Below are positions 4,352-59,738 of a stretch of 64,000 bases of DNA, in pieces. The stretch comes from Platanthera guangdongensis. Its lineage: Eukaryota > Streptophyta > Magnoliopsida > Asparagales > Orchidaceae. Location: NCBI GenBank assembly GCA_039583875.1, contig CM077159.1, positions 104,307,287 to 104,371,286 on the forward strand, given 5' to 3'. Within the stretch, counting starts at the first letter, position 1. Each line of letters begins with the position of its first letter. The notes beneath the pieces were generated by a model. That model searched no databases and was not told the DNA's origin. It worked only from the letters and a program-made list of their open reading frames with translations. The translations under genes were made by a program, and so were the position numbers.

Positions 4352-6657
4352 TGTAACACCCCCTATCCGTCGCATAGCATATAGCAGTAGGTCCGGCCGG
4401 GGCCCGACGCCATATACCACAGACAGACCGGGTGGTTACGTATGGAAACCATCCAACCAATCTCAACGTCCTACACAGAGCATTCTAGCGGAAGCAATAT
4501 ATAAGAGTTACAAATCAAGAACCCAGCACAAGCATGAATGTCCACTAAAACCAAAAGGAATGTCATTACAAAATACTCAAAAGTCGGCCTTAAGGCCTTA
4601 CGAGATGTTTCATTTGTCTATTACATGATTTACCAACCTCGGCACGCAGGCCGGCCATACATGAATAAAATAGAAAACATTTCCACTTGGGCCTTCGAGG
4701 GCCAGCTTCGCAAAAAGGGCTTTAGCCCGCTATTGACCGCTTGGTCCAGCTGCACCTGCAAGCAAACAAACCACCGCACGGTGGCAAACAAAGCAACGGT
4801 CAGCAATGCTGACCAAATTATAACGATCCCGCCCCCAACTCGGAGCGGCGATGCTCCTTCCCTGCAGTTCATTAGCACAAGCGAGCAATGCATATAACCA
4901 TAGCCATCTCATCACAGACGTTGGCTCGTACGGCCACACGTCCCGTGCACTCAGGGCACATTCTCGGCGAACCGGTCGATGTCACGTCAATTAAAGCCAT
5001 TAACATTCCGGACTCACCACCGCCACTTAGACGGCCATTCCTATGAGCAATTCGTCTTCATGGTATTGGTCACGTCAATTTAAGCCATTGACCACCGAAG
5101 ACTCACATCTATGCCAACGGCGAGTGCCATGTAACTTTAGGTCTCTCTAACCCGAACGACATAAAGCGGGTACGGCTCCATCTAACCCGTGCTCACATCG
5201 CAACGGCAATTTAAGCCATTTGCGCGGGTCAAACTTTCACCGAGTCCCATTCTACCGCAAGACACATAACCCCGTTATGTTCATGTTGGCACTCAGGCCA
5301 CCAAGTTGGCAAGACCTCGTGTCCGCCCAGTTTTCCGGGTGCACCTTTGGGTTAGTCCCCAAGGCTCCCTGCTGCAATCTACCGCGTAGAAAACCCGAAA
5401 ACACCAAATAGCACGGAGTCTTCTCCGGCCTTATGCAATGCAACATCACCGATCCGAACTAACATGTCCGGGTAGGCTTCAACCACAATGCCTATGTCCG
5501 TTCTCGCATACGGACGCTAAACAACGGGGACTTTACATATCTACCCGAAGGAATGCCTCCAACTCTTCGCAAACTCGCGAGAGAGGGCTTCCTATGCTAA
5601 CAAAGAAAGCTATCAAGCTCACAAGTGAGGATCGTTACCCTTGCGTTCCTCTTTGGCGCCATCGAAATGTAATCGGATAGAAATCACCGCGCTTGCGTTG
5701 CCTCCGTGGATCCGGAGTCGGCTTGCGATTCGGAGCTCCGAAGCTCCTCCAATGGCGGATCTAGTTCCTCTTCCTCTAGCCTTGGCTCTTCTTTCTCCAA
5801 GGGTTTGGAGAGAGATCAAGTGATGAAAAGTGTGGATTTTTCTAAGTCAAACCCGTGTATATCCTCCCAGGAACCATCCCCAGCCGTCGGATCTCAACCT
5901 AAGAAAACGAGCGGCTTTGATTCGGGGCTGAAATGCCCAATCTGGGCCGAACACGGCTTGGCACACGCCCGTGTCCAGGGCCGTGTGCCGCATTCGCCGT
6001 CAAAATCGAATCTTCTGAACACGCACACGGGTATCGAACACGCCCGTGTTCGAGCTGACACGCCCGTGTTCCAGCTGACACGGCCGTGTAGCCGGCCGTG
6101 TACCCATGATTTTTCCCCCGTTTCCAACCCGAGCACTGCACGGGTTCTAGGACACGCCCGTGTCCTTGCCCGTGTCACATTGACACGCCTGGGCCCCCAG
6201 GCCGTGTACACGGGACATTTCGTCGAGGGGAGAACGACGACTGGATGACACGGCCTTGGACACGCCCGTGTCCTAGGCCGTGTGCCTTGTCTCGACGACC
6301 GTCGAGTGAATCTCGACGATTTCAGCTTGACGCTCGTCGACACGGGTCGACACGCCCGACGACACGCCCGTGTCGCGGGCCGTGTGCCCATTCTCGACGA
6401 CTCGTCGAGAATAACTCGACGATTTCACGGCTAAGTGTCGACACGGGTCGACACGCCCTGCGACACGCCCGTGTCGCAGGCCGTGTGCCCATTCTCGACG
6501 AATCGTCGAGAATAACTCGACGACTTCGCGGCTAAGTGTCGACACACGCTTGACACGCCCTGGGACACGCCCGTGTCCCAGGCCGTGTGCCTTCAGCCAG
6601 AAACCAAAACTGGCCCAAAACGTCCCCCTTTGCTCCTTTGAGTTTCGGGGCGTTACA
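4352..6657 (-). repeat. G2 3' LTR
   Basis: 2,306 bp, pairing with 11,548-13,852. In element sense it starts TGTAACGCC and ends GGGTGTTACA. It carries a dense array of dyads at 5,945-6,590 and, downstream in sense, a TATA-like GGATATACAC around 5,855-5,864. Small ORFs in the LTR are by-products of the repeat array and are not annotated. Confidence 0.97.
5945..6590 (-). repeat. G2 U3 dyad array (ACACGCCCGTGT and CTCGACGA/TCGTCGAG)
   Basis: Two interleaved palindrome families. The first is GACACGCCCGTGTC with its partner GGCCGTGTG, repeated about ten times with changing flanking pairs (AACACGCCCGTGTT, GACACGCCCGTGTC) that mostly keep the dyad pairing. The second is CTCGACGAnTCGTCGAG followed by AATAACTCGACGA, repeated three to four times toward 6,290-6,530. 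Compensating changes at the outer bases suggest that symmetry, not a fixed sequence, is kept. The other LTR has the same array at 13,140-13,785. Confidence 0.9.
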
Positions 6658-9600
6658 ACTCTACCCCTCTTAAAAGAATTTCGCCCACGAAATCACATAA
6701 AGGGAAAAACATGTACAAAACAAAATTTGTACCTGAGCGGAACAACTCCGGATATTCGTCAAGCATCGTCTGCTCTCGCTCCCAGGAGAGCTCCTCACGA
6801 CCGCAATTGTCCCACCGGACTTTGACCATCCTGATCTCTTTATTGCGTAGCCGCTTGACCTCCGAGTCTTCAATCCGCACGGGCTTGACCTTTGTCGTTA
6901 GCCCACTATCCACCGGCACTTGATCGACCGCGATCACTTGCGTAGGCTCTTGCACCGCCTTCCTAAGTACCGAAATGTGGAATACATCGTGTAAACCACT
7001 TAGCTCCACAGAAAGCTTCAACCTATAGGCCGCTTCTCCCACTCGCTCCAGAACCTCGAACGGTCCAAGGTACCTCGGGCTTAGCTTTTTCAATCGCCGC
7101 ACCCGCGAGACACCCTTGAACGGCTTGATCTTCAAGTATACATAATCGCCCACAGCGAACTCCACGTTCCTGTGCTTGGCATTATAGTACTTTGCTTGCC
7201 GGTCCTGAGCCATGAGCAACCTCTCCCGAATGGTTCTTACCAAGGAAGTAGCATCCTCCACTTCCGATCGCTTATACAACTTTGACTCGCCCGTTTCTAA
7301 CCAAGACAACGGCGTGCGACATCTTCTACCATAAAGGGCCTCGAAAGGCGCCATCTGAATACTTGCTTGGTAGTTGTTGTTGTATGCGAACTCCACCAAA
7401 TAAAGATGGTCCTCCCATTGCTTTCCAAAGTCCAAGACATACATGCGAAGCATGTCTTCCATGGTTCTATTGACCCTCTCGGTCTGCCCATCCGTTTGTG
7501 GATGGAAGGATGTGCTAAACTTCAGCTTTGTTCCCAACATTTGCTGCACCAGCCTCCAATCATTGGACGTGAACCGCCCATCACGGTCACTCACGATGCT
7601 GCGGGGCACACCATGAAGCCGTACTATATTATCCACATAAAGCTTCGCCAGCTTCTCCACCGGATCGTCCTTCCTATGCGGAATAAAGTGCGACACCTTC
7701 GTTAATCGATCGACCACCACCCAAATGGCGTCGTTCCCCTTCTGCGACCTTGGCAAACCATGCACAAAGTCCATAGAGATGTCGTCGAATTTCCACTCCG
7801 GAATAGGCAAGGACTTAAGAAATCCTCCCGGCTTTTGGCACTCCGCCTTTACTAAGGCGCAGGTTTGGCACTTCGCTACGTATAGCGCCACATCCTTCTT
7901 CAAACCCGGCCACCAAAATAGCTTCTTGATATCGCGGTACATCTTCGTGCTCCCCGGGTGAATCGAGTACTTGGTATGGTGTGCCTCGTACAACAACTCC
8001 ACCCGTAAATTGCCCACACTAGGGACGCACAAACGACCGTCTTTCCAAAGCAATCCGTCCTCCACGACGAATTGGGAATTTGACCCATCCAGAGCCTCTA
8101 TCATGAACTGCTTCATATGAGCATCCATATCCAAAGCCTGCCGAATCCGATCAGCCAGGTCATATTGGACTTCAGTCCAATTCAGCACTGCTTCAGCGCT
8201 AGATTGTCTATCCACACAAACAATCTCCAACGCCTCCAGCTCCTGCACCAACCGCTCATCATGCACTGATAGCCAATTCGCTTGAGCTGGGGCTCGGCGA
8301 CTCAATGCATCCGCAACCGCATTCCCTTTGCCAGGCACGTAGTGGATCTTAAAAGTATAGTCCCCCAGGAACTCCATCCACCTACGCTGCCGCATATTCA
8401 AATCTTTCTGATCTATTAGATACTTTAGGCTCTTGTGATCGGTGTAGATGTCAATCTTCACACCGTACAAATAGTGTCTCCACAGCTTCAAGGCAAAAAT
8501 CACGGCCGCTAACTCCAAGTCATGGACCGGATAATTCCTCTCGTGCACTTTTAGTTGTCTCGAGCCATAAGCTATCACGCTGCCGTGCTGCAGTAGCACG
8601 CAACCCAAACCGCTGCCTGAAGCATCGCTATATATCTCATAGCCTTCGGTCCCAACCGGCGAACTCAACACAGGCGCCGTGGTCAACCGACACTTCAATT
8701 CCTCAAAAGCTCGCGCGCACTCCGGCGTCCAAACGAACTTATGCTCCTTCCTCGTCAAAGTAGTGAGAGGTAGCGCTATCCGCGAGAAGTTCTCTACGAA
8801 GCGCCTATAATAACCGGCAAGCCCCAAAAAGCTCCGGACTTCTGCTACCGTAGCAAGCTCAGGCCACTCCCGTATCGCAACAATCTTCGCCGGATCCACC
8901 GCAATACCCTCTCCACTCACTATATGCCCGAGGAACGCCACTGAGGATAGCCAAAACTCGCACTTCGAGAACTTGGCATACAACTGGTTTCTCCTGAGTG
9001 TCTCCAACACCAAATGGAGATGCTTGAAGTGATCCTCCTCACTTTGCGAGTACACCAAAATATCGTCGATGAAGACGATCACGAAATGGTCTAGGTACTC
9101 CCTGAACGTCCTGTTCATCAAGTCCATGAATACTGACGGCGCATTAGTCAGCCCAAACGGCATGACCGTAAACTCATAATGCCCGTATCTCGTACTAAAC
9201 GCTGTCTTCGGGATATCACTCTCCCTTATCCGCAGCTGATAGTACCCAGACTTGAGATCTAACTTCGAGTACACCGTCGACCCGACTAACTGATCGAAGA
9301 GATCATCAATCCGGGGGATCGGGTACTTATTCTTCTCAGTCAGCTTGTTTAGCTCCCGATAATCAATACACAATCTCAAGCTTCCGTCCTTCTTCTTAAC
9401 AAAGAGGACCGGTGCGCTCCAAGGCGAAGAACTCGGGCGCACATACCCTTGCTCCAACAACTCTTGCAGTTGAACCTTCAGCTCCGCCATTTCCTTAGGC
9501 GCTAGCCGATATGGAGATCGTGACACGGGCTTTGCACCTGGCACTAGCTCGATAGTAAAATCTATCTCCCGTTGTGGCGGGGCTCCAGGAAGATCTGCAG

Positions 9601-10102
9601 GGAACACATCAGGGTATTCCGATACCACTGAAATACAATCCATAGCGGGCTTCGGCTTTGCAACCTCCACTAGAGTGAAGAACAGTTCTGCTCCGGCACG
9701 AACTGCCTTAACCACTTGAAGAGCAGACATCAATGTTTTGCTCGACCCCTTTAAGCCCTTAAACGTCGTCTCACGACTCGCTCCCAGCTTGACTTCCTTG
9801 CTACCGCAATCTATATGGGCCTGCTGCTCCGAGAGCCAGTCCATGCCAAATATGACGTCAAACTCCACTAACGGAAGTAAAGACGCCCGCAGGTCGAACT
9901 CCTGCTCTCCAATACGAGTCTTAACCTCGCAGATCCTAACCGCTCGCATCGAACACCCATTGGGCAATAACACATCCAACTTGTCCTTCGCCATCGAAGA
10001 AGGGACTCCGATGCGTGATATAAATCCTTACGGACAAGAAGGAGTGTGAAGCTCCCGTATCAAAGAGTGCTCGTGCGGGATTTTCACAAATCATTACAAA
10101 TC
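6653..10102 (-). pseudogene. pol: G2 pol: PR-RT-RNase H-INT-chromodomain (exon 2, one frameshift)
   Basis: Pol polyprotein of a chromovirus. After the intron the frame gives the protease (LFDTGASHSF, 10,040-10,070). A single extra base near 10,026 shifts the frame, and the rest is open for 1,113 codons. Visible parts are the RT ([28 protein letters not shown]) with catalytic FIDDIL intact at about 9,060, RNase H ([21 protein letters not shown]), an integrase HHCC zinc finger ([20 protein letters not shown]), the integrase D-D-E core ([25 protein letters not shown]), a GPF module ([11 protein letters not shown]), and a chromodomain-like end ([24 protein letters not shown]). The stop codon is made from the first bases of the LTR (TGTAAC). 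Products would act in cytoplasmic particles and then in the nucleus. Only the protease frameshift appears disabling. Confidence 0.93.
6658..6672 (-). other. G2 polypurine tract
   Basis: In sense, TTAAGAGGGGTAGAGT abuts the 3' LTR start TGTAACGCC. The neighbouring block (CCTCTTAAAAGAATTTCGCC on the plus strand) has a near copy in the 5' leader at about 11,479-11,515. Confidence 0.8.
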
Positions 10103-10178
10103 CTAAACAAGCAGTGGTAAGGTAACATATACATAACAAGCATATAAAGGAATTGACTTGCTATAAATTAAACCGTAC
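10103..10178 (-). other. G2 intron between gag and protease (76 nt, phase 1)
   Basis: In sense, ACAG|GTACGG opens it and TGCTTGTTTAG|GATTTG closes it, with a branch-point-like CTTAC and a pyrimidine-rich end. Unspliced, Gag ends three codons inside (GGT ACG GTT TAA). Spliced, the Gag frame runs on in phase to the protease motif LFDTGAS. The same position, phase and early stop occur in G1, G3 and G4. No transcript was examined, so splicing is inferred from sites and frame. Confidence 0.8.
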
Positions 10179-11322
10179 CTGTCACCACGTCAGCTTGTTT
10201 AATGGCCTCCTGTTGGCCAAGATTATAGACCCTTGGTTGGGCCGGAGCATAGTGGGATGCGGTCGACTCCACCGCCATTCCCTTCTCTTCGTAGGTAGCT
10301 CCTGGCCTCCTTTCGGACTTAGGACGTCCGCTCCAACAATCACGGGCAAAGTGCCCCGTCTTGCCGCAAGTAAAACACGCACCCGGGGTCCGACCCGTAG
10401 TCGCCCCAGAAGCGCCAGAAGGAGCTGGACCCGAAGTCCTATGCTTCTTGAAAGCCCTCCGATAGCCAGACTTCGAAGTAGTCGGCACTTTAAACTCAGA
10501 CTTCTTTTCACCCAAGCTTTTCTTTGCCTGTACACTACTCATGTCCTTCTCCAAGGACCGGGCAGTATTGACCAAGGTTAAGAAACCCTGCGTCATCGGC
10601 CCCGACAGTAATAGTCTCAGCTCATCCCTCAGACCTTCGTAGAAGCGATTAGTCTTGCGCTCCTCATCCATGATGGTAGAGCTCGCATAACGACTCAACC
10701 GCGTAAACTCGTGGAGATATTCATCCACGCTTCGCTCACCCTGCACCAACCTCAGGAACTCATTCTCCATTGAAATCCTCTGAGTAGAAGGGAGGTATCT
10801 TGCTAAGAACAATTCCGAGAACTCTTCCATCGGAACGTCTATCAATTGTCTTCCTCTCAGATGATGCAGCTCCAAGCCTTCCCACCACATCCTTGCTTCA
10901 CCGTCCAACAGGAACGTAGCAATGGTGGTCATCTGCCACTCCTCCGTCTCCGTCGCTGTCATGACTCTCTTCACCCTAGAGAGCCAGTCTTCAGCCTGCG
11001 ATGGGGTTCCCAACCCCGAGAATAACGGAGGGTTAAAGCTCATTACATGCTTCAACTGCCTCTCAGTCGCCCTCCTTGGCACTATTGGTTCTACAACCAC
11101 TTGCTCCATCCTCCTCGGCTCCGCCTCTTGAAGAGGTACTTGCTCCATCACAGGAGCTGGCTGCTGCGCTTGCCTCCCAGGCTGCGCATTTATCACGGCT
11201 AGCACCGCTTCAGCCACCAATCTTATATTTTCAGCCGACAAAGGTGTTGCGGGAGCAACTTCTGGTGCACTACTTGCCTCAGAACCTCGGCGTTCTGACG
11301 GCCCAACACCACTTCTGGTCAC
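10179..11322 (-). CDS. gag: G2 gag (capsid-nucleocapsid), exon 1
   Basis: Gag packages element RNA into particles. The frame is open for 384 codons. The N-terminal part is Pro/Ala/Glu-rich. The retrotransposon gag core follows (FNPPLFSGLGTPSQAEDWL, WEGLELHHLRG, FLARYLPST, RLVQGERSVDEYLHEFTRL, FYEGLRDELRLLL), then a Lys/Arg-rich linker and one CCHC knuckle (CFTCGKTGHFARDC, about 10,334-10,380). It ends VVTGTV if unspliced, or continues into pol after intron removal. The start is unclear: the frame opens with GTG directly after an in-frame TAG, and the first ATG in frame is well inside. The ATG may have mutated to GTG, or the leader may also be spliced. The decayed gag of G4 is closely related. 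Confidence 0.9.
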
Positions 11323-11547
11323 CTATAGTGGTACAAAACACCGTTAAGCGACCAAATAACATTGCAAACAGCAATTATAGGAACACGCAGGTTCCTCAAA
11401 CACGAGTATTTTCATTCCTAAGTGGACATTCATGGGTTCTCTTTACTGTTATAACGATGACGCACACAATGTGCTCACCACCCCTTAAAAGAATTCGCCC
11501 ACGAATTCAATTCAAGCCCGACCAAAACCAGTAGTCTGATACCAAAT
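11323..11547 (-). other. G2 5' leader with primer-binding site
   Basis: TGGTATCAGA, in sense next to the LTR end (11,531-11,547), matches the first ten bases of the initiator Met-tRNA complement; pairing then drops. The leader also holds a near copy of the polypurine-tract region (11,479-11,515) and a short ATG-started frame of about 30 codons around 11,430. Confidence 0.8.
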
Positions 11548-13852
11548 TGTAACACCCCCTATCCGTCGCATAGCATATAGCAGTAGGTCCGGCCGGGCCC
11601 GACGCCATATACCACAGACAGACCGGGTGGTTACGTATGGAAACCATCCAACCAATCTCAACGTCCTACACAGAGCATTCTAGCGGAAGCAATATATAAG
11701 AGTTACAAATCAAGAACCCAGCACAAGCATGAATGTCCACTAAAACCAAAAGGAATGTCATTACAAAATACTCAAAAGTCGGCCTTAAGGCCTTACGAGA
11801 TGTTTCATTTGTCTATTACATGATTTACCAACCTCGGCACGCAGGCCGGCCATACATGAATAAAATAGAAAACATTTCCACTTGGGCCTTCGAGGGCCAG
11901 CTTCGCAAAAAGGGCTTTAGCCCGCTATTGACCGCTTGGTCCAGCTGCACCTGCAAGCAAACAAACCACCGCACGGTGGCAAACAAAGCAACGGTCAGCA
12001 ATGCTGACCAAATTATAACGATCCCGCCCCCAACTCGGGGCGGCGATGCTCCTTCCCTGCAGTTCATTAGCACAAGCGAGCAATGCATATAACCATAGCC
12101 ATCTCATCACAGACGTTGGCTCGTACGGCCACACGTCCCGTGCACTCAGGGCACATTCTCGGCGAACCGGTCGATGTCACGTCAATTAAAGCCATTAACA
12201 TTCCGGACTCACCACCGCCACTTAGACGGCCATTCCTATGAGCAATTCGTCTTCATGGTATTGGTCACGTCAATTTAAGCCATTGACCACCGAAGACTCA
12301 CATCTATGCCAACGGCGAGTGCCATGTAACTTTAGGTCTCTCTAACCCGAACGACATAAAGCGGGTACGGCTCCATCTAACCCGTGCTCACATCGCAACG
12401 GCAATTTAAGCCATTTGTGCGGGTCAAACTTTCACCGAGTCCCATTCTACCGCAAGACACATAACCCCGTTATGTTCATGTTGGCACTCAGGCCACCAAG
12501 TTGGCAAGACCTCGTGTCCGCCCAGTTTTCCGGGTGCACCTTTGGGTTAGTCCCCAAGGCTCCCTGCTGCAATCTACCGCGTAGAAAACCCGAAAACACC
12601 AAATAGCACGGAGTCTTCTCCGGCCTTATGCAATGCAACATCACCGATCCGAACTAACATGTCCGGGTAGGCTTCAACCACAATGCCTATGTCCGTTCTC
12701 GCATACGGACGCTAAACAACGGGGACTTTACATATCTACCCGAAGGAATGCCTCCAACTCTTCGCAAACTCGCGAGAGAGGGCTTCCTATGCTAAGAAAG
12801 AAAGCTATCAAGCTCACAAGTGAGGATCGTTACCCTTGCGTTCCTCTTTGGCGCCATCGAAATGTAATCGGATAGAAATCACCGCGCTTGCGTTGCCTCC
12901 GTGGATCCGGAGTCGGCTTGCGATTCGGAGCTCCGAAGCTCCTCCAATGGCGGATCTAGTTCCTCTTCCTCTAGCCTTGGCTCTTCTTTCTCCAAGGGTT
13001 TGGAGAGAGATCAAGTGATGAAAAGTGTGGATTTTTCTAAGTCAAACCCGTGTATATCCTCCCAGGAACCATCCCCAGCCGTCGGATCTCAACCTAAGAA
13101 AACGAGCGGCTTTGATTCGGGGCTGAAATGCCCAATCTGGGCCGAACACGGCTTGGCACACGCCCGTGTCCAGGGCCGTGTGCCGCATTCGCCGTCAAAA
13201 TCGAATCTTCTGAACACGCACACGGGTATCGAACACGCCCGTGTTCGAGCTGACACGCCCGTGTTCCAGCTGACACGGCCGTGTAGCCGGCCGTGTACCC
13301 ATGATTTTTCCCCCGTTTCCAACCCGAGCACTGCACGGGTTCTAGGACACGCCCGTGTCCTTGCCCGTGTCACATTGACACGCCTGGGCCCCCAGGCCGT
13401 GTACACGGGACATTTCGTCGAGGGGAGAACGACGACTGGATGACACGGCCTTGGACACGCCCGTGTCCTAGGCCGTGTGCCTTGTCTCGACGACCGTCGA
13501 GTGAATCTCGACGATTTCAGCTTGACGCTCGTCGACACGGGTCGACACGCCCGACGACACGCCCGTGTCACGGGCCGTGTGCCCATTCTCGACGACTCGT
13601 CGAGAATAACTCGACGATTTCACGGCTAAGTGTCGACACGGGTCGACACGCCCTGCGACACGCCCGTGTCGCAGGCTGTGTGCCCATTCTCGACGAATCG
13701 TCGAGAATAACTCGACGACTTCGCGACTAAGTGTCGACACACGCTTGACACGCCCTGGGACACGCCCGTGTCCCAGGCCGTGTGCCTTCAGCCAGAAACC
13801 AAAACTGGCCCAAAACGTCCCCCTTTGCTCCTTTGAGTTTCGGGGCGTTACA
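11548..13852 (-). repeat. G2 5' LTR
   Basis: 2,305 bp, almost identical to 4,352-6,657. Differences seen are one missing G in the GGCCGGGG run, and single substitutions near 12,040, 12,417, 12,797, 13,570, 13,677 and 13,726. It contains the same dyad array at 13,140-13,785 and drives the element leftward. Confidence 0.97.
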
Positions 13853-20918: not shown

Positions 20919-22443
20919 TGAAAGTGCAACTAGATCTGATATACTCTAGAGGGGGGTGAATAGAGTATATGGGGCTTTAAAAACTTTTACAAACTTTTAC
21001 AACAATTGTTGTAATATATGTGAGTAGGGAAGCAATAAAAAATCTAATCACAGTACTAAGTTAAACAAAAGCTAAGCACAGAAAAATCAAGGCCAGAAAC
21101 AAAAATTAAAAACAAGCAAAACTAGAAGACACAAGGAAATATAGTGGTTCCCCAAACTTGGGTACATCCACTCTTCTACCACCCTAGGTAGGAATCCACT
21201 GCAGGATGAGTTGATCAGGTGTCCTGGGCACCAATGAGCTTTTGATAAGGTGCTCAAAAACCAAAGCAGATTTTTTGATCAGGTGTCTTGCCACCAATGA
21301 GCTTTTGACAAGGTGCTCAAAAACCAAGTTCAAACTTTTGAAGGGAGTTTGAAAAACCCTTTACAGAGTGGGGTGAGAGAGTGATGGTAGTCTTCTCTTT
21401 CTCAAACAACTGAGAAGACTAAGTGGATTGATGTCAAAGCTCCCCCTGAATCCTTGAAATCTTCAGGAAGAAAAGCTTTGCTGAGGGTGATAGGCCTTCA
21501 AAGATTGAACTCCAGCAATGGATAATTTTCAGCAATAGCTGAAATGTTGAGTGTCTGGAGTCTTGAAATATGTTGGCCTTCAACACTTTGAAAACTAAAG
21601 AGATCTGAAGATTTGAAAACTTGATCTCCTTGGATGAGTGTTCTTCAGAATTCTTTGAGACAGAAGATTTTTGAGAGTTCTCTGTAGTCAGTGTCTCTCT
21701 CTCTCTATATTGTGTGTGTTCTTCTATATGAGAGATTCAAAAATCCTGTCTTTTATTCTCTGGTCAGAATAGAATATCATTCTCTGTCAAGTATAGCCGT
21801 TGGCCTGCATTAATTGCATCCTTAATTGCATAATCTCTTCTGGAGGAAAGTCCACAGAAACATTCCTTGAAAAATCCCTTGAAACTTGGTCCAGAATTGA
21901 ATGAAAACGGCTAGCAAATCTCTGAATTAATTGCAGAATAACTCCTAACTGATTTTGAATTTGAGTTCTGGAAGTTATTTGAAATCATCGAACTGATCTC
22001 TGCTATCGTCGAGCTGAGCTCAGCGATCAGGAAATCTTAAGCAGCAAAATATCGTTGATCTGAGCTCAAAGATCGTCGAACTAAGCTCAGAGATAAACAT
22101 CCAAAGCATAGTCAAAATCATCGACCCGAGCTCACCGATCGTCGAATGGAGTTCGACGATATAAAGAGGTTGAGCTCAGCGATCGTCGAATGGAGTTCGA
22201 CGATATGTCGAAGTTGAGCTAGACGATCGTCGACCGGAGTTCGACGAATCGTCGTGCTAAGCTCGATGATCAGACTTAGTCTCCAGACTGAGAATCCTCC
22301 TGGTCTTCAGGGCAGCTTCCAACCTAGACTTCTAACCCTTAGACTCAATTCTAATTGACCTATTAAGATATACAGAAGGTCAAGCAAAGGATTCCTAGAG
22401 ACATAGTGATCCTGACCCAAATTAGTAATAGGGTGTTCCAACA
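20919..22443 (-). repeat. S1 5' LTR
   Basis: 1,525 bp, pairing with 877-2,397 at about 98 percent identity by hand comparison. It holds the dyad array at about 21,985-22,270 and a TATA-like GAATAAAAG (21,750-21,758) downstream in sense. It is followed on the plus strand by the GGGGG duplication at 22,444-22,448. Confidence 0.95.
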
Positions 22444-23233: not shown

Positions 23234-23359
23234 CTGACAGAATAGGCAGTATATATACATATATTATATTTTAATATACAAGATATAGGTTTGCAAAACA
23301 TATCCTAGTTTAGCATAAGTAGCAACATCTGACATATCTCTATTGCCTAATATATATAC
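23234..23359 (-). other. G1 intron between gag and protease (126 nt, phase 1)
   Basis: In sense it opens ATAG|GTATATATA and closes CCTATTCTGTCAG|AAATTT. It is strongly A/T-rich, as plant introns are. The unspliced frame stops six codons in (CAA TAG). The spliced frame continues exactly in phase from the Gag end (DLVI) into the protease segment MVEGHPTKTLFDTGA. Site, phase and early stop match G2, G3 and G4. Confidence 0.75.
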
Positions 23360-25612: not shown

Positions 25613-26282
25613 CATAGTATGGGCTGCTTCTTTTCAAGCAGAGTAGCGAGCCCTGCGAGCTTCACCGATGTGGCCCTCGGTGATAGTGGCCAGCCCTGCC
25701 ACTTCTGGGGTGGTCGTACAACACAGTCCCAGGCCCCAACGTACAACCGGGTGTACTATTGGATGTGAACAACATCCGGCGTTACCGTATTTTTGCTGAC
25801 CAGCGGAGGAAATCCCAACGGGGAATAAAACATGACGGCCGGTCACCCGTGGTACCCATCTCCCTATCTCCTTGTGTGGTTGACCTTCCGCACCGGTACG
25901 AACGATCTGAATAAAGGACGGACCCGCCACAATTTATCGCAAGCAGATTTACAAGAAATCAAACATACAAATTTGTTAGCACGCACCGGGTTTATGGCAG
26001 CCTACCCCACGATGCTTCAAACTTCGGGCGGCGGTTCTTAGCTTGAATTTCGACATGGAGCGTGGGAGCACTTTATTTGGGGCTAAACCTGGAGGAACAC
26101 CTCAACTCTGGTTATCCCCAACTAAGGCTCGACCTTAATAAACAACAGCTCGTTATAGTAGGACTCGTGCTTAGGTCAATAAGTTGCAGGAATAAAAGTG
26201 GTAGTTTAGGGCTTTGATAATGAAAGCTGCATAATTTATGTGCTGGAAAAATATGCGACAAGTAAGGAACTGGAGTAGTATT

Positions 26283-26648
26283 GACTTGAAAGTGCTGAAT
26301 TAAACTTGACCAGTATGAGACTAGAATTGAATTGAAAGTACTGAATTGAACTTGACTAGTACTACACTGGAATTAAATTGAAAGTACTGAGTTGAACTTG
26401 ACCAGTACAAGACTGGAATTGAATTGAATGTACTGAATTAAACTTGACCAGTATGAGACTGGAATTGAATTGAGAGTACTGAATTGAACTTGACCAGTAC
26501 GAGACTAGAATTGAATTGAAAGTACTGAATTGAACTTGACCAGTACAAGACAGGAGTTGAATTGAATGTATTGAATTGAACCTGACCAGTACAAGACTTG
26601 AGTTGAATTGAAAGTACTGAATTGAACTTGACCAGTATGAGACTGGAA
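26283..26648. repeat. 46-bp tandem repeat, about 8 copies
   Basis: Unit GTACTGAATTGAACTTGACC followed by AGTACGAGACTGGAATTGAA and TTGAAA. Copies differ by point changes (GACCAGTATGAG, GACTAGTACTAC, GACCAGTACAAG). GTACT/AGTAC forms a small dyad in each unit. It lies inside the G1 LTR, in the transcribed part if the TATA box at 28,317 is used. Confidence 0.93.
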
Positions 26649-28316
26649 TAATCATAAAGAAGAAAAGTTTATTAGTCCAACCACTCCTTTCAGTTCATCT
26701 CCATTTTTAGGAGGCACATTCAATTCTATTTCAGTTTTTAAAGGCTTCTTGGGTTACATCCATTATTAAGATCCGACAGCAATTTAATTGTGCCATGTTT
26801 GTTACGGTTTAAATGGATCTGGGACTCATTAGGAGTCACACTCTTTTTAATCGTCGAGAATAATTTGTGAATCACTATTCATACTCTCGCCTTCTGAGTG
26901 TGCCCGAAGTTTCCCAAGAGTTGAGGCATTCGATGGTTTCATGAAGTCTCGGGGCAACCAGAGCTTTGCTACTTGTCTCGGCCACTCACGTTGGTGGTGT
27001 AATTTTAAACTTGATATTTAAATTTGGTGGGATGGTCGCGCGTTCCAATTTTCATTTTCGGAGAAAGTGAGCGAAATAAATACCAGGCGCGGCCCTAAAC
27101 TCTTAGAATTTGAAAGAAAATTCATTTCTTATCTCCATGTCCCCAAATTTAATAGAACCCTTGGGTGAGACTATTAAGTTTTTATAAATTATTTCATATT
27201 TTTTACCCAAGTTTTGGGTCATTTATTTGGCCTAATAAACATTATTTAAGCTTTAAAAAATAATAAAACATTTAATAATTTTCAAAATTTTTGTGGAGAA
27301 ACCCCTCAATATGGGGAACGTTTTTCTTGTTGACCACTTTACGCACTGGGGCTCTGATTTGGCCCCATAAAATTCATAAAGTTATATTAAGGGATTTGGT
27401 TTGCAATTAGCAGATCAACCACAATTTATGTGTCTGAGATTGAGTCGGAAGGCTTAACGCGCCGTTGCTTCCCCATAGCAGTTCAGCTGCAGATCCGCAA
27501 TGGGGGCACAGAAATGGAGGCAGGGGGGGGGGGGGGTGGGGAATAGGTGATCCCCGCCATCCATCTCATCACCGGAGATGGATGACGATGATTTATTCTT
27601 TGTAGTAGAAAGAGGTTGCGACCCTCTGTCACCACCGGCCAGTCGGTCCTTGGTGCCGGCGCCGCCCCGGTAGGTTTGCCGAGGGCCGGTGAGTCCTTGA
27701 GTGGTGGTCCGGCGGCCCACCACCATCGGCCACCGCCTAATTTAGCCAACCTGAGAGCGGAGTGGCGGTGGTCCTGCTCCTAGCGCCACCGCACCACCCC
27801 GTCTCTCCGTCGTTGAGCCCAGCCCCGAAACCACCCCTAACCAGCATGCCGGGGGCAGGTCCCTTCTCCGATGGTGGCCCGACGACCAACCGCCACTGCC
27901 ACCGCCGGAGATAAAACAAAGCAAAACTCTGCTTCTCAGGTGCCATCGGAGCGGCATTTTCTGGCGATACCCCTGCCTTTCACAACCGGGGAAAGTCATA
28001 CCCGGTGGTTTAGCCCTTCCCCAGTTCCACCACCGGTACTGGGAGGGTCTAGACTTCCTGCTGCCACCAGCCGACTTGGAGCATGGGTCGGGTGTCGGCG
28101 GCGCTCCGGCCACCTGAGGTCCCATGCAGGTCGTCCAGAAGATGGGGAAGGAGGAGGAGAAAGCTTCTACCTGTGCAGGAGGGGCTGACTTGATTGGCCA
28201 TGAAAGGTGGCGGTGGTGGTGAATCACGGGTTGAGGTTTTCCGGCGAGCTAGGGTTTCGGTGAGGTCTCCCTTGGGCTCGTTTCTCTTGGTGGAGAGAAA
28301 GGAAGGGGGTTGGTGC

Positions 28317-30184: not shown

Positions 30185-32698
30185 TGTTGGGTCCCTTGAT
30201 CCAAATGTCCAAGATTTGAAGAAGTCCAAATGAACAATTGTATACACATGTGTGTAATCTAACAGTTATCATAAGTTTGTTTGTGCAGGATGTTCCTTGG
30301 AACATGATTATAAAGGTTGTTCAAGTGTCTGTGACAAGTGGTCATAAGGCAGAGATGTGGAGCGACTGAAATCAGTCTAAGTCCACAGAAATTGAGTGAA
30401 GATAGCTCACTCAATGCCTGATACGCAGAAGCGTCGAGTAAAGACAAGTCAGTCAAAGCTTTTGTATTGACAGAGAAGAAAAATGTCTAAGTCCACAGAC
30501 GTTAAGTGATGTCAACTCACTCAACGCCATACAGCTTGAAGCGTTGAGACAAGCTCTCTCAGTGAAAGCCAGAAGAGAAGATAGACAGAAAAATCTGTCT
30601 AAGTACAAAAGCATTGAGTGATGAAGCTTCACTCTGTGCTCTCAATGCCTCAGCAAGCCAACAGACTTTAGAGATGCGGCTAAGTATAAAAGCGTTGTGT
30701 GATGAAGCTTCAATCAACGCTCTCAACGCCTGTTGGTGCTGGAAGATTGTCGAAGGACAAAAGCATTGAGTGATGAAGCTTCACTCAATACTCTAAATGA
30801 TTCATAACAGAATTATTGTCAAAGTATTTTGGTGTTGAGTTAAGCTTGCTCACTCAACGCCTATTGACAGAAAATTTGTCCAAGTATTTTTGGTGTTGAG
30901 ACAAGCTTGCTCCCTCAATGCCCAGTGATAGAAAATATATCTAAGTATTTTTGCATTGAGTAAAGCTTACTCACTCAACGTGTAGTGACAGAAAATCTGT
31001 CTAAATGTTTTGGCGTTTATTAAAGCTTACTTACTCAACCCCTAGTGACAGAAAATCTGTCTAAGTATTTTGGTGTTGAGTAAATCTTACTCACTCAATA
31101 CGTAGTGACATAAAATCTGTCCAAGTATTTTAGCGTTGAGTAAAGCTTACTCACTCAACGCCTAGTGACAAAAAATATGTCTAAGTTTTTGGCGTTGAGT
31201 GAAGGTTGCTCACTCAATGATTATACTAATATTGCTTGAATTTGATTAAGTCCATAGATGCTGACATCAGCAAAAGTCAACAAGATTCAAAAAGAGGTGG
31301 GATGGCTGCAGTACATGACAACTTTTGACAATTAAAGTAAAGGTGCAGCTGTCAAATTTAGTGGTACCCAATGGTCAAAATAGTCGTTGAGCCTCGGGAA
31401 TAAAAGAATGAGGATCAGTTTGGTGAAATTAACTTTTGTATTATTCTGAATAGACAGAACCTCATCTTCTTCCTCACTATTCTTGGAGTGGTGAAGTTTG
31501 AAGGACAAAATTTACTAATCCAGAGGTTCAAGTAAGTTAGCTGCAGCAAGCTTCATCTGCTATAGCAAGTTCAGAAGGGAGTTCTGAGAAAGAAGAAGAA
31601 GCAGATCATTCTAGTCTCTATAGTCAAGTGTTGATTGAAGAACAGAAGATCTATCAAATCATCAGTCTTCTTCAGCAAGTTCAGAAACAAGTTTCTAAGT
31701 TACTTCAACAAGCAATAGCTTATTGAAGATCTGTTTTCTTATTGCTAAGAAGAAGTTAGGGCTGAGGTAAACTCAGCTCAGGAGGTAGGGACAGAGAAAT
31801 CTCTCTAGTGTCAAGTAAACCTTACCAACCAACCCTTCTCCTTATAGGATCTATTCTTGGATCTAAGTGTGGAATCCTTTTTTGATCTATGTTATAAGCC
31901 TATTTTATAAAGGTTGAGGTAGGATTCTTGTGTGGATCTGAGTGTAGGATCCGGTTGCAGATCTAAGGTAGGGCTTTGGCCTGAGTGTAGGATCCATTTT
32001 GGATCTGAGTGTAGGATTTGATTGTAGATCTGAGGTAGGTTGTTTAGCATGAGGTGGGATTCTGTTGAGAATCTGTGCTAGAGTATGTATGTCTGAGGTA
32101 GGGCTTTGGCCTGAGAGTAGGATCCAATTTGGATATGTGGTAGGGCTCTTGAGCCTGAGATAGGAGAGTCATTCTCTCTGAATTGTAGGAAACTTGTGCC
32201 TGAGTTGTAGGATCCTTTGGATCTAAGGTAGGGACTTTGTGCCTAAGTTGTAAGAGCTTCATTATCTGTGAGGTAGGGCTATCCTCCCAGCCTGAGTTGT
32301 AGGGCCTTTGGGCCTGAGGTAGGTGATCTTTGGATCACTGAGTTGTAGGGCCTTGTACCTAAGTTGTAAGTCTTGCAGGAGACTGAGAGATCCTGCAGGA
32401 TTTGAGGTGTAAACTCTTTGGAGCAGAGTTTTGTTTTTTGAGAAGTGCCTTATCTAACAAGAATTTAGAAAGGTGGGAGGGAAAGTGGACGTACCCATAA
32501 TCTGGGGAACCATTATAAATTCTATGTGTGCTTCTTGTGTTGTTTCTTTGTTGCATGTTGTGTGTCTCTTGAAAGCAGAAAACCACTTACTCACAAAGCA
32601 CTTAAAGAAGTAAAACAAATGATAGTCACAAGAGACTAAGAAACCATTCCACCCCGCCCACTAGGTGATTTAGCTATCCTTGAAAATAAAGACTTTCA
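30185..32698 (+). repeat. S2 3' LTR
   Basis: 2,514 bp, TGTTGGGTCC...AAAGACTTTCA. U3 holds a two-hairpin array (30,385-31,215). A TATA-like GAATAAAAG is at 31,398-31,406. The transcribed part holds short repeats of the type GAGTGTAGGATC (31,845-32,400). The end motif CCATTCCACCCCG...GACTTTCA is shared with S3 and S4. To its right the sequence returns to ORF3 of S3, so S2 is inserted in S3; the target duplication cannot be checked because the left end is outside the window. Confidence 0.88.
30385..31215 (+). repeat. S2 U3 two-hairpin array (about 60-bp unit)
   Basis: In the distal half the unit is about 60 bp with two separate palindromes: GCGTTGAGT...ACTCAACGC with AAGCTT at the centre, and GACAGAAAATCTGTC. 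About seven units run from 30,830 to 31,215. The proximal half holds looser versions (CATTGAGTGATGAAGCTTCA). Arm changes are often matched on the other side. Confidence 0.88.
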
Positions 32699-47223: not shown

Positions 47224-50027
47224 TGTCACAACCATCATTTTCTCAGCATTTAATAATGTATCTGAGTAAGAGAAAATACACAATGTGATGTCACGATGTG
47301 ATGTCACGCTGTATAGGGGACAACTGTAGACACTCAGGCAAGAACCTACTCCTGACACTTTTCATGAAATTCTCAAGTTCTTTATGATGGAGATATAAGC
47401 ACTGTTTGGGGGGACTTATTTTCACCGGTCAAGTGGTACATGCGGTCATAACCGCTTGATCGATGAAAATACGTCCCCCCAAATGGAGCCATAGTTTGAG
47501 TTTTAATGGTTGTGTCCCTCGCCTCAGTGGTTTAAATAGTCTAAGGGTGAAAATATACATATACATAATAGAAAATACTTGGTTTATTTCATTTATTATC
47601 CTATATGAGTATGAAGATCCAATAGAACTATTCATGATATGCACACCTCTAGATTTAGTATAAGTACAAAATGAGCTTTTACGTTTATTAAAGTAGAGTG
47701 TCATTTGATTTAAAGAGATATTATGAGTACGAGATAAAAGTATTTATCTTTTTATACTTTGAAAATAACTAACATGCAAACCTAACATAAAACCATCCCA
47801 GAGAGCAAGTAGGTACGACAAACAGCTAGAAAATTAGCATAGCAGCTAACAAATAGTCTATTATCCAAAACAATTCATTGTGGTCATAAAGAACCAGACA
47901 CGAGCCCACAGAACAAAGTGTATGTCTCAACTAAAATAGGAACAACAAAACTACCTCACAGAGGTGAGGGAAGAACCACTGCTACTACTGCAGAACGCTA
48001 GAGACTACCAACTCTAGCTACTCAAACCGCTACTGCTTCGGGCCTGAGGCATTCAAAAGAAAATAATGCCTTAGCAAAAATATATGCAAATGGCAATAAA
48101 GATCAAAATCAACTAGTTAGACTCGTTAAGAGGGTTACCAACCCAAACAGATTAGCTATCAAACCACAACTTCTAAATCAAAACACAGTGTGAAAATGAA
48201 GAATTCAAGAGGTTAATTATGTAAAAGTGCACCAAGTGTGACAAAGCACTATGCTTTATTAACATCAGTAAGAGTATGCTTATAAACATATGTATATATA
48301 TAAGAAAAGACTGATCAGTTAAACATGTGAATCATTAACACTGGTAAAAGAAACCCAGTACGGAGGCAGTGGACACTTGTCCATCACAAACCATCAGACC
48401 AAACAATCTTAAGAAGGTACTGTGGTGGACAGATTGTCTAACAAAACCAAATAGTACATAAGAAGAGAAAATAAGAAACACGCACCAGGTGTAATGATTC
48501 ACAAACCGTCACTGAGGTGGTGGTCCTTTATCCATTGCCAACCAAAGGCCACAAATAAACTTCCAAAAATACTGATAACGAAAGAAAAACCAAAAGTCTA
48601 CGAAGGTATTCTCGACAAATAGGTGGGTCACTCGTCGAAAACTTCTAAGTCCACATGGATTTGTTGATAACATTTGATGAATTGACTCGACGATGAAGGT
48701 CAAACTCGGCAGATTCAGAGTAAGTACTCGACAGAAAAATTCTAAGTACACACCGATTCATCGAGAGTACTCGACGAGTTCGAAGACACTCATCAAATGC
48801 ACTAAATCACGCAACTCACTCGATGCTAACACTTCACTCGACGAATAAAAGGATACTCGATGAATTTAACTTGGTTTCGCGAATATACTCAGCGAATGAA
48901 GGGATACTCGATGAAAAGACTTAGCTAATTCAACTAATACCCAATGATACTCAATGAATTCGTCGACAATACTCGACGAGTTGACATCACTAGATGAATT
49001 TTACTTCACTCAATGCCTAACTGAAATTACTCGATGAATTCGTCAAGATTACTCGACGAAAAAGACTTGACTCCACAAATTTACCTGGTCTCGATGAATT
49101 GGACTTGACCTCACATCGATACTCGACGAATTACACTCGACGAATAGGACTCAAATCGGTCATGAACACTTGATAATTTCACTCGACGAAAAGGACTCAG
49201 ACTGATTCCTACACTACTCTGATTCGACGAACACAAACCCTACCCTATTCCTACATCTTATAAAGGAAGGAAAAAGATAATAAGAGCAAATGAACTAGCA
49301 AGAGGGGAGTAATCACCACTTGTCTCAAAATCTTCTGAAAACCGGCATCTCAAGCGCTCCGCCTTAAGGATCGGCCACAAGAACTCCTCGTCTACAATGT
49401 CTAAAAAATTTCGGGCAAAAGAAGGGTTAAGTACAAATACCCTAACGTCAAAAATCCAAGAAACAAGAAAATCTTACAGTGCACCGGATCTCTGATAGGT
49501 GGCACAAGACGACTTTGCGATAACGCGTCGCTCTCTTCTTTCCACCCTTCAGACCAATGACTTGGGGAAGGCGATGAATAGGATTTTCATTTTATAAGTA
49601 TATATATATATATAATATTATAATATTAATATAATTTACAAGAAAAACTCAAACAACGAGAATTACTAAAACACCTCGATTTTCGATGAAATTCACACCA
49701 AAGCTAAATGTCGGTGCTACAAATCCAATGACGAAGTCAAAATCAGGATCCGACAAACCAAACTCAGGTTAAAATTTCCCGAAGTTAAAATAATAATAAT
49801 CCTATTAAAATTCACCAAGACTCCAATTAAGCCCAGATCGTAATGAAACTTCACTAGCACGCTTAAAATTAACCACTTAAATTTTCCCAAGTCAAAAACT
49901 CTAATTTAGATGAACAAAATTATGCACTAATGACGGTGCCCCGCTAACTATGGGTCAATGTAACGCCCTTACATCACTATTATGCCACAAGGAGTAAAAC
50001 AATTATCGAAAATTCAGGAGCGTTACA
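47224..50027 (-). repeat. G3 3' LTR
   Basis: 2,804 bp, plus-strand ends TGTCACAACC...GAGCGTTACA, paired with 55,477-58,219. It contains a CTCGACGA-type dyad array (48,600-49,215) and, upstream of the array in sense, a TATA-like CCTTTATAAGATG near 49,256-49,268. In G3 the array would therefore be transcribed, unlike in the SIRE elements. Confidence 0.9.
48600..49215 (-). repeat. G3 LTR dyad array (CTCGACGAATT / AATTCGTCGAG)
   Basis: About 20 half sites of ACTCGACGAA, ACTCGATGAA and TTCGTCGAG type, often arranged as GAATTCGTCGAGATTACTCG. The second LTR has the same array at 56,750-57,335. The core TCGACGA/TCGTCGA equals that of the S1 and G2 arrays although the LTRs are otherwise unrelated. 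Confidence 0.88.
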
Positions 50028-53493: not shown

Positions 53494-53571
53494 CTGATAA
53501 AATCGTTTACGTAACTAGCCGAACAACATCAAAACTAAAGCTAAAAGCTAAGAACTAGATTAAAATCTAAC
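53494..53571 (-). other. G3 intron between gag and protease (78 nt)
   Basis: In sense it opens CTCAG|GTTAGATT and closes TTTTATCAG|GAAG. It is T-rich. The unspliced Gag frame stops at the first intron codon (GGT TAG). Splicing joins VIS-G to SFEV-like sequence, but the present copy then needs one more base to stay in frame with VLFDSGAT, consistent with later decay. Position is the same as in G1, G2 and G4. Confidence 0.65.
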
Positions 53572-55476: not shown

Positions 55477-58219
55477 TATCACAACCTGCATTTTCTCAGC
55501 ATTTAATAATGTATCAGAGTAAGAGAAAATATACGTCGTGATGCCATGTCGTGCAAGGGATAACTGCAGACGCTCAGGCAAGAACCTACTCTTAACACTT
55601 TTCATGAAATTCTCAAGTTCGTTATGATGAAGATATAGTTTGAGTTTTAATGGCAGTGTCCCTCTACTCAGTGGATTAAATAGTCTATGGGTGAAAATAT
55701 ACATTTACGCAGCGGAAAATATGTGGTTTATTTCATTTATTATCCTATGTGAGTATGAAGATCTAATAGGACTATTCATGATATGTACACCTCTAGATTT
55801 AGTATAAGTACAAAAAAAGCTTTTACGTTCGTTAAAGTAGACTGACAATTGATTTAAAGAGATGCTATGATTACGGGATAAAAGTATTCATCTTTTTATA
55901 CTTTGAAAATAATTAACATGCAATCCTAACATAAAATCATCCCAGAGAGCAAGTAGGTATGACAAACAACTAGAAATTAGCATAATAACTAACAAATAGT
56001 CTATCATCTACAACAATTCACTGTGGGCGTCAACAACCTGACACGAACCCACAGAATAAAGTGCATGTCTGAACTAAAATTGGAACAACAAAACTACCTC
56101 ATAGAGATGAGGGAAGAACCACTACTACTGTAGAATGCCTAAGACTACCGACTCTAGCTGCTCAGACCGCTATTGCTTCATGTGCCCGAGGCATTCAAAA
56201 GAAAAGAATGCCTCGGCAAAAATATATGCAAATGCCAATAAAGAACAAAATCAACTAATTAGACTCATTAAGAGGGTTACCAACCCAAGCAGATTAGTTG
56301 TCAAACCACAGAACCTAAATCAAAACATAGTGAGCAAATGAAGAATTCAAGAGGTTTATTATGTAAAAATGCACCAATTGCAATAAAGAGCTATACTATG
56401 TTAACATCAGCAAGAGTATGCTTATAAACATATGTATATATATAAGAAAAGACTGATCAGTTAAACACGTGAATCATTAACACCGGTAAAAGAAACCCGG
56501 TACTGAGGAAGTGGCCACTTGTCCAACACAAACCATCAGACCAAACAATCTCAAGAAGGCACTGTGGTGTTGGCCATATTGTCCGACACAATCCAAAAAT
56601 CGATAAGAAGAGAAAATAAGAAACACCCACCAGACATAATGATTCACAAACTAGCACTGAGGTGGTGGTCCTTTATCCACTTCCAAACAAAGGCCACAAA
56701 TAAACTTCCAAAATACTGATAACAAAAGAAAACTCGAAAGTCTACTAAGGTATTCTCGATGAATAGGTGGGTCACTCGTCGAAAAACTTCGAAGTTGACA
56801 CAGATTCATCGATAATATTCGACGAATTGACTCGACGATGAAGGTCAGACTCGATGAACTCAGAGTAAGTGCCCGATGGAAAAATTCTAAGTACACACTG
56901 ATTCGTCAAGAATACTGGACGAATTAAAAGGCACTCTATGAATATACTAAATCACTCAACGCACTCGACGTCAACACTTCACTCGATGAATAGAAGGATA
57001 CTCGACGAATTTAACTTGGTTCCGTGAATATACACGACAAGCGAAGGGATACTCGGCGAAAAGACTTAGCTAATTCAACTGATACCCAATGATACTCAAC
57101 GAATTCGTTGAGAAAACTCGACGAGTTTACTTCACTCGGTGAAATTAACTTCACTCGATGCCTAACTGGAATCACTCGACGAATTCGTCGAGATTACTCC
57201 ACGAAAAAGACTTGACTCCACAAATTTACCTAGTCTCGATGAATTGTACTTGACTATATATCGATACTCGAAGAATTACACTCGGCGAATAGGACTCAGA
57301 CCGATCATGAACACTCGACGATTTCACTCGATGAAAAGGACTTTGGTTGATTCCTACACTACTCTGATTCTACAAACACCAAACCTACCCTATTCCTATA
57401 TTCTATGAAGGAAGGAAAAAGGCAATAAGAGCAAATGAACTAGCAAGAGGGGAGGAATCACCACTTACCTCAAAATCTTCTGAAAAGCGGCCTCCCAAGC
57501 ACTCCACCTCAAGATCGGCCACAAGAACTCCTCGTCTATGATATCTGAAAATTTTCATGCAAAATAAGGGTTAAGATAAAATACCCTAACTTCAAAAATC
57601 CATGAAATGGAAAATTTTACCATGCACGCGAAGATTTTGGCGGGAGCTTTTCGGATCTTTGCTCCAACGAGGTTTCGTTCACCGGAGCTCCAATAGGAGG
57701 CATTCGGATGACTTCGCGATAGCATGTCACTCTCTTCTTTCCACCCTTAGGACCGATGACTTGGGGAAGATGATGAATAGTGTTTTCATTTTATAAGTAT
57801 ATATATATAATATTATTAATATAATTTACATGAAAAACTCAAGCGACGAGAATTACTAAAACATCTTGGTTTTCGATGAAATTTGCACTAAAGCTAAATG
57901 TTGGTGCTACGAATCCAACGATGAAGTCGAAATCAGGATCCTACAAACCAAACTCGGGTTAAATTTTCCCGAATTTAAAACAAAAATAATCCTAATAAAA
58001 TTCACTAGACTCCAATTAAGACCGAATCGCAACGAAACTTCACTAGCACGCTTAAAATTAACCACTTAAATTTTCTCAAATAAAAAACTCTAATTTCGAT
58101 GAACAAAATTACACACTAACGACGGCTCCCCGCTAATTATGTGTCAACATAACGCCCTTACATCACTATTACGCTACAAAATGGAGTAAAACAATTATCA
58201 AAAATTCTGGGGCGTTACA
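55477..58219 (-). repeat. G3 5' LTR
   Basis: 2,743 bp, plus-strand ends TATCACAACC...GGGCGTTACA (first TG worn to TA). It pairs along its length with 47,224-50,027, including the blocks near ATGAAGATCYAATAG and the dyad array at 56,750-57,335. Small ORFs here are incidental. Confidence 0.9.
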
Positions 58220-59640: not shown

Positions 59641-59738
59641 GTACGAGTTAAGATACAGTTTTTACTGCTTTCTATACTTGGTACATTATGCATTGCTTGT
59701 GTATAATTTACTTTTATTAAGCTTTGTCTTGATATTAG
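59641..59738 (+). other. G4 intron between gag and protease (98 nt, phase 1)
   Basis: Opens ATCACAG|GTACGAGTTAAG and closes GTCTTGATATTAG|ATTATC. The unspliced frame stops three codons in (GGT ACG AGT TAA), as in G2. Spliced, the frame enters PVRALFD, the protease start. The 5' splice region is nearly identical to that of G2; the interior is diverged and longer. Confidence 0.72.

Follow-up and report, generated by a model that had tools for sequence, protein, structure and literature searches.

A phase-1 intron candidate at the Gag/protease seam of Tekay-like retrotransposons in the orchid Platanthera guangdongensis

Four retrotransposons of the Ty3/gypsy type lie in a 64,000-nucleotide (nt) stretch of the Platanthera guangdongensis genome (assembly GCA_039583875.1, contig CM077159.1, forward-strand positions 104,307,287 to 104,371,286), which is referred to below as the window. 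Three copies, G1, G2 and G3, are on the minus strand and one, G4, is on the plus strand. Each carries a short intron-like segment at the place where Gag gives way to the protease, and the segment of G2, which is the subject of this report, is precisely absent from some copies elsewhere in the genome. Copies were counted by pattern and probe in the host assembly, which is 4.25 Gb in size; these counts are inflated if the assembly contains both haplotypes.

G2 is a 9.5-kb element with long terminal repeats (LTRs) of 2.3 kb. Comparison of the two repeats places the 5′ LTR at 11,548–13,852 and the 3′ LTR at 4,352–6,657 (minus strand, like all G2 features), with 99.7% identity (6 mismatches and 1 gap opening over 2,306 positions), and the target duplication is CTCCA. 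The Gag frame, which contains a Retrotrans_gag domain and a CCHC zinc knuckle, occupies 10,168–11,322. The start of the protease exon (FVMICENPARALFDTGASHSF...) lies at 9,995–10,102, and the rest of the protease, reverse transcriptase (RT), RNase H, integrase and a weak chromodomain match are encoded by a pol frame at 6,653–9,994. The order of domains found by Pfam in the Gag and pol frames, Gag-protease-RT-RNase H-integrase, is that of Ty3/gypsy elements. The C-terminal Chromo match (E = 4.6e-4, 20.5 bits) is under the cut-off of 25.1, and L001, an intronless relative described below, matches at the same level. G2 is judged to be a Tekay-like chromovirus, a judgement backed by the domain order and the weak chromodomain match. 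The 5′ LTR is followed by TGGTATCAGA, a putative primer site for tRNA-Met.

The segment between Gag and protease in G2 lies at 10,103–10,178. It is 76 nt long and in phase 1, with the donor ACAG/GTACGG and the acceptor TTTAG/GA, and the exact seam that its removal would leave is also found in intron-free copies. Unspliced, the Gag frame terminates as DVVTGTV-stop three codons past the donor, its last three codons and stop lying inside the intron. When the segment is removed, Gag continues into the protease through an 11-residue spacer before LFD, and the phase-1 seam is translated as DVVT-G-FVMICENPARA-LFDTGASHSF.

An exact 31-mer spanning the donor has 1,830 matches in the assembly and none in the control. 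Eight other intron-bearing copies, identical to G2 over 201 bases, were fetched, and the intron is 76 nt in 8/8. Gag is open over 381 codons in five of them, and protease-RT is open over all 517 fetched codons in five of the eight. The intron stop put forward in a preliminary description of the window, with open frames on either side, is true of the less damaged intron-bearing copies. The window copy of G2 has a protease frameshift about 25 residues past the acceptor, before the long pol frame. This frameshift was rejected as a design feature because all eight other copies are in frame at that place.

The preliminary description had claimed phase-1 GT...AG segments in all four window copies. 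By reading and translation, such segments are present in G1 (126 nt, 23,234–23,359), G2 and G3 (78 nt, 53,494–53,571), and phase 1 holds in all four copies. The interiors are T-rich, as had been stated, with 39–47% T on the sense strand compared to 22–30% in the 120 flanking bases, and the unspliced frames do stop soon past the donor (6, 3, 1 and 3 codons in G1, G2, G3 and G4). In G1, the donor is ATAG/GTATAT and the acceptor TGTCAG/AA. Its seam reads DLVI-E-ILMVEGHPTKT-LFDTGATHSF, so the seam codon of this copy becomes Glu and not the Gly of the motif D-V-[VI]-[TS]-G given in the preliminary description. G3, for which no join had been claimed, misses the register by one base once the segment is taken out; the related L031, found elsewhere in the genome, is in register. 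In G4, the donor is as described and the acceptor is not. The proposed acceptor at 59,738 was rejected because it gives a spacer of 5 residues and because the homologous end lies at about 59,720. The corrected segment of about 80 nt (59,641–59,720, plus strand) has its end set by register with G2 and lacks an AG; since the homologous end reads AA, the acceptor looks damaged. G4 also has a shift in its Gag frame, on the upstream side of DVIT. The in-frame joining of Gag to protease stands for G1 and G2, each with an 11-residue spacer before LFD, and G4 is no clean case of it.

Copies from which the segment is precisely absent were sought in the assembly. Exact exon ends with 0–30 free bases allowed between them occur at 3 places, with a gap of 0 in 3/3 and no match in the control. 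A seam probe allowing up to 3 mismatches finds 87 places, again with none in the control. Intron-free and intron-bearing numbers can be compared only exact against exact (3 versus 1,830, from 29- and 31-base patterns), and then loosely; the 87 seams have no intron-bearing count of equal stringency beside them. Eight of the 84 inexact matches were fetched, and together with the 3 exact ones they retain the seam glycine and the local frame in 11/11, although several of these 11 copies have stops nearby. Both LTRs are present in two intron-free copies, C9 (LTRs 99.6% identical) and C12 (99.0%), and each of these copies has a 5-bp target duplication, as expected from reverse transcription of spliced RNA. 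In a third, C11, the 5′ LTR is rearranged and a duplication is not shown. The reading of the segment as a spliceosomal intron is supported by these precise intron-free copies, and also by the GT-AG ends, the T-rich interior and the precise absence taken together, all of which are properties of DNA.

The intron-free copies do not form a single group. In the sequence that precedes the seam, C11 matches C12 at 98.9% identity and C9 is 95.4–95.5% identical to either; C9 is closest to the intron-bearing L007, at 99.2%. Five exon variants are found both with and without the intron: GTAATG (as in G2), GTATTG (L024), GTTTTG (L041, where the acceptor is damaged), GTGTTG (L056, L061) and TTCGTATTG (L043, L054). 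In trees of the flanks, intron-free copies are scattered among intron-bearing ones, with supports that vary and with two trees that differ in places. This scattered placement suggests that the intron has been lost repeatedly. GTATTG and GTTTTG are the commonest intron-free variants among the 87 seams, and they may represent intron-free subfamilies that multiplied.

Relatives of C12 were found with 381 bases upstream of the seam, and 40 of 3,046 candidates, C12 included, were scored and listed. The intron segment is present in 20/20 of those fetched from the 39 others listed, with a length of 76 nt in all but one, which has 75. All 20 retain GT and 19 retain AG, and the last exon base is changed in two. 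Given these 20 further copies, the same codon in distant families (see below) and the precise intron-free copies, the segment is conserved by more than chance.

Several observations weigh against this account of splicing and repeated loss. A few losses may have spread by gene conversion or recombination, in which case there were fewer events. In the set of 87 seams, some intron-free variants are present in many copies, so copying does not strictly require the intron, at least where other copies lend help. The L028 family gave no exact intron-free seam in the genome search. Moreover, donor and acceptor share AGG, and a deletion between such short repeats would yield the same seam; C12 itself has a repeat-bounded deletion elsewhere, in integrase. 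The missing integrase stretch of C12 had been considered as a second splice event and was rejected, since a short direct repeat, rather than GT-AG, flanks it.

The shared AGG and the repeat-bounded deletion in C12 would favor an explanation without any splicing, in which deletion from AGG to AGG made the intron-free copies and Gag and Pol are produced through reinitiation or recoding. The same seam, however, is found at 87 places and in several exon variants, and none of the gaps of 1–30 bases appeared in the exact search. Random deletion was rejected as the source on the same grounds. In addition, families differ in how long the T-rich GT...AG segment is and in its sequence, yet the seam is kept in frame, and intronless relatives are continuous at the seam codon. 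The explanation without splicing is the least credible of those considered, with hardly any probability left to it.

These intronless relatives allow the spacer to be compared with and without an intron. L001 (NVVLG-TLLVNCHPASV-LFD), L002 (DVVIG-MFSINSAPATI-LFD) and L003 (EVIFG-TFLVNSMPASV-LFD) are unbroken at the seam, and their spacer is 11 residues in 3/3. Across the intron, the spacer is likewise 11 residues in 8/9 seams (G1, G2, L006, L024, L041, L028, L031 and G4), and G3 fails. Four of these eight seams come from one family (G2, L006, L024, L041), and the G4 spacer is not independent because its end was chosen by register. The exon ends of G1, G2 and G3 were those of the preliminary description, those of L028 and L031 were set by an AG in frame, and those of G4 and L041, where the last intron bases are AA, were set by homology. 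Since the three relatives read through the seam in one frame, the earlier proposal that the intron is "replacing ribosomal frameshifting" is not supported. L001, L002 and L003 are plant-like gypsy polyproteins in bacterial genome records (a Microbacteriaceae metagenome-assembled genome, Robertmurraya and Labilibacter), and they are probably plant contamination of those records. No relatives turned up in viral contigs. In L001, an acceptor-like stretch, TTGTTTACCTAGG, is found immediately 5′ of the gag ATG.

To follow the distribution of the intron further, 20 genome stretches, each 10 kb long, were sampled blind, and a Tekay-like protease start occurs in five. The intron is present with in-frame seams in L024, L028 and L031; L041 carries it too, though its acceptor is damaged, and in L039 the upstream exon is unrecognisable; the intron-free state was seen in none of these five loci. 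L022 belongs to another clade, without the intron here, and L025, a weak protease match (E = 0.02), was left out of the count. The protease of L028 is 45% identical to that of G2 over 124 residues (79% over the first 29-residue piece), L031 and G2 are 34% identical over 99 residues, and G1 and L024, which represents the G2 family, are 34% identical over 105. Families with proteases only about 34–45% identical thus have what reads as the same intron at the same codon. In L031 it is 95 nt long, and no in-frame stop is met before the TAG that belongs to the acceptor itself, at codon 31 after the donor.

In an RT tree made of window, genome and contaminant sequences only, L001 and L002 fall outside, and the intronless L003 stands, at a support of 0.795, between G3-like lineages and those of G1 and G2. 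One old gain followed by loss in the L003 line is possible, as is more than one gain. It has also to be considered that the intron-free state could be ancestral in the G2 superfamily, with the intron gained late and then spread. The absence of the intron from L001, L002 and L003, which are from other plants, would agree with this, as would the weakly supported position of L003 between intron-bearing lineages. Against it, G1, L028 and the G3-like L031 share codon and phase despite distant proteases, and all 20 of the close C12 relatives examined, out of 39 listed, bear the intron. A late gain is accordingly considered very improbable.

Other features of the window and of the G2 family can be described briefly. 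G2 is nested in a copia-like element with LTRs at 877–2,397 and 20,919–22,443, which are 97.8% identical, and this element itself interrupts G1. Tandem repeats with an offset of about 102 bases are found inside the G2 LTRs (6,247–6,591 and 13,442–13,786), and others lie at 26,273–26,649 (offset about 46 bases) and 30,807–31,217 (offset about 60 bases). An old LTR-like pair surrounds G3 (47,226–50,027 and 55,479–58,219; 84–87% identical in pieces). The G2 Gag frame opens right after CACTATAG, at GTGACC (window 11,322, minus strand; leader 11,323–11,547), and its first ATG is at about residue 59. The same CACTATAG/GTGACC start is present in 13/14 loci searched, with no alignment in L028, and it could mark either a non-AUG start or the acceptor of a leader intron. 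The G2-type leader is also retained where the seam intron is absent, in C9, C11 and C12. Pairs of junction copies 7,195–7,200 bases apart were recorded in the host assembly (C7:116238762/116245958, C6:105104720/105111915 and C3:37383112/37390312); this spacing equals one LTR plus the internal region, and it suggests tandem elements sharing one LTR.

The stop in the intron, the continuity of Gag and protease across the seam and the precise intron-free copies make it hard to doubt that these sites are used for splicing in vivo and that the spliced RNA is occasionally reverse transcribed. In the preferred account, a spliceosomal intron of 73–126 nt interrupts, in phase 1, a codon close to the protease start of Tekay-like chromovirus families in this plant; in most cases this codon is the glycine of DVVTG. 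Splicing would be partial. Unspliced RNA would be translated to Gag and would also serve as the genome, and spliced RNA would be translated to Gag-Pol. As a whole, this is the best explanation of the observations and a probable one. Partial splicing is then best understood as setting the ratio of Gag to Gag-Pol. Intron-bearing copies are in great excess, which suggests that unspliced RNA is nearly always the one copied into new elements; new copies of the exact type would almost always come from such RNA, or else intron-free ones multiply less.

The intron could also be real without tuning Gag against Gag-Pol. Nearly all translated RNA would then be spliced, only unspliced RNA would be packaged, and any excess of Gag would come from elsewhere. 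How much of the RNA is spliced cannot be read from intron-free seams, and both splice sites resemble those of ordinary plant introns, two points that suit such an arrangement. On the other hand, G1, G2, G3, G4, L024, L041 and L028 all have a stop within 1–6 codons of the donor, although in L031 it comes only at codon 31. Because the stop follows the donor so closely, unspliced RNA would give a nearly clean Gag in most families. An intron without tuning is judged unlikely, though it carries more weight than either of the two alternatives above.

Returning to partial splicing as the preferred reading, a broader proposal is that the Tekay-like lineage kept the intron across families whose proteases are 34–45% identical, that it divides labour between two RNAs, with the spliced one hardly ever serving as a template, and that copies made from spliced RNA arose repeatedly, some intron-free forms reaching tens of copies. 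The chances for and against this broader proposal appear evenly balanced. If the two-RNA reading is true, one genome holds a natural experiment on the purpose of the intron, with intron-free forms at tens of copies. The 1,830 exact intron-bearing matches and the 87 intron-free seams, counted at unmatched stringency, allow both the choice of template and the fitness of intron-free copies to be asked about.

In the available text of PMC6317226, most groups of plant LTR elements have one polyprotein frame, and Bianca and Ogre have open reading frames separated by a gap. Plant LTR elements are generally without introns according to the available text of PMC12786077, with Ogre and EVADE as exceptions, and Bagy2, Ogre and CRR are named in that of PMC3735527. 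No report of an intron at the Gag/protease seam of Tekay or another chromovirus was recognised in searches of the open PMC literature, from which subscription papers are mostly missing, and an earlier description may exist. The single-frame groups leave open how Gag comes to exceed Pol, and in this lineage the seam intron, if true, would be a straightforward solution.

Bianca, a Ty1/copia element, resembles G2 in having two open reading frames, about 172 bp apart; it differs in superfamily, and no splicing is described for it in the available text (PMC6317226). In BARE1 and EVADE, also Ty1/copia, splicing separates the output of Gag from that of Gag-Pol, as far as the available text goes (PMC3735527, PMC12786077). 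Their spliced RNA, however, encodes Gag only, while the seam described here joins Gag to protease in frame and unspliced RNA would stop after Gag. CRR is a centromeric chromovirus of the CRM clade. Like G2, it is a plant chromovirus, and it has a spliced RNA (PMC3735527, available text). Unlike in CRR, splicing in the Tekay-like element would remove no conserved coding part.

The closest parallel is with Ogre, of the Tat lineage of Ty3/gypsy, in which a short polyprotein intron is kept in genomic copies and removed from some of the RNA, allowing the complete polyprotein to be produced (PMC6317226, available text); for the element described here, intron-bearing and intron-free copies coexist in one genome. 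The Ogre intron lies between gag-protease and RT-RNase H-integrase and averages 274 bp, whereas the present one is at the Gag/protease seam and is 73–126 nt long, the G2-type intron falling inside the span that Pfam RVP_2 matches in L001. Furthermore, Tat elements have an additional RNase H, whereas in G2 the Pfam matches for this region are confined to the families usual for RT-RNase H and integrase. By analogy, the seam intron may work like that of Ogre, but the element that carries it differs in intron position and domain make-up and is not Ogre.
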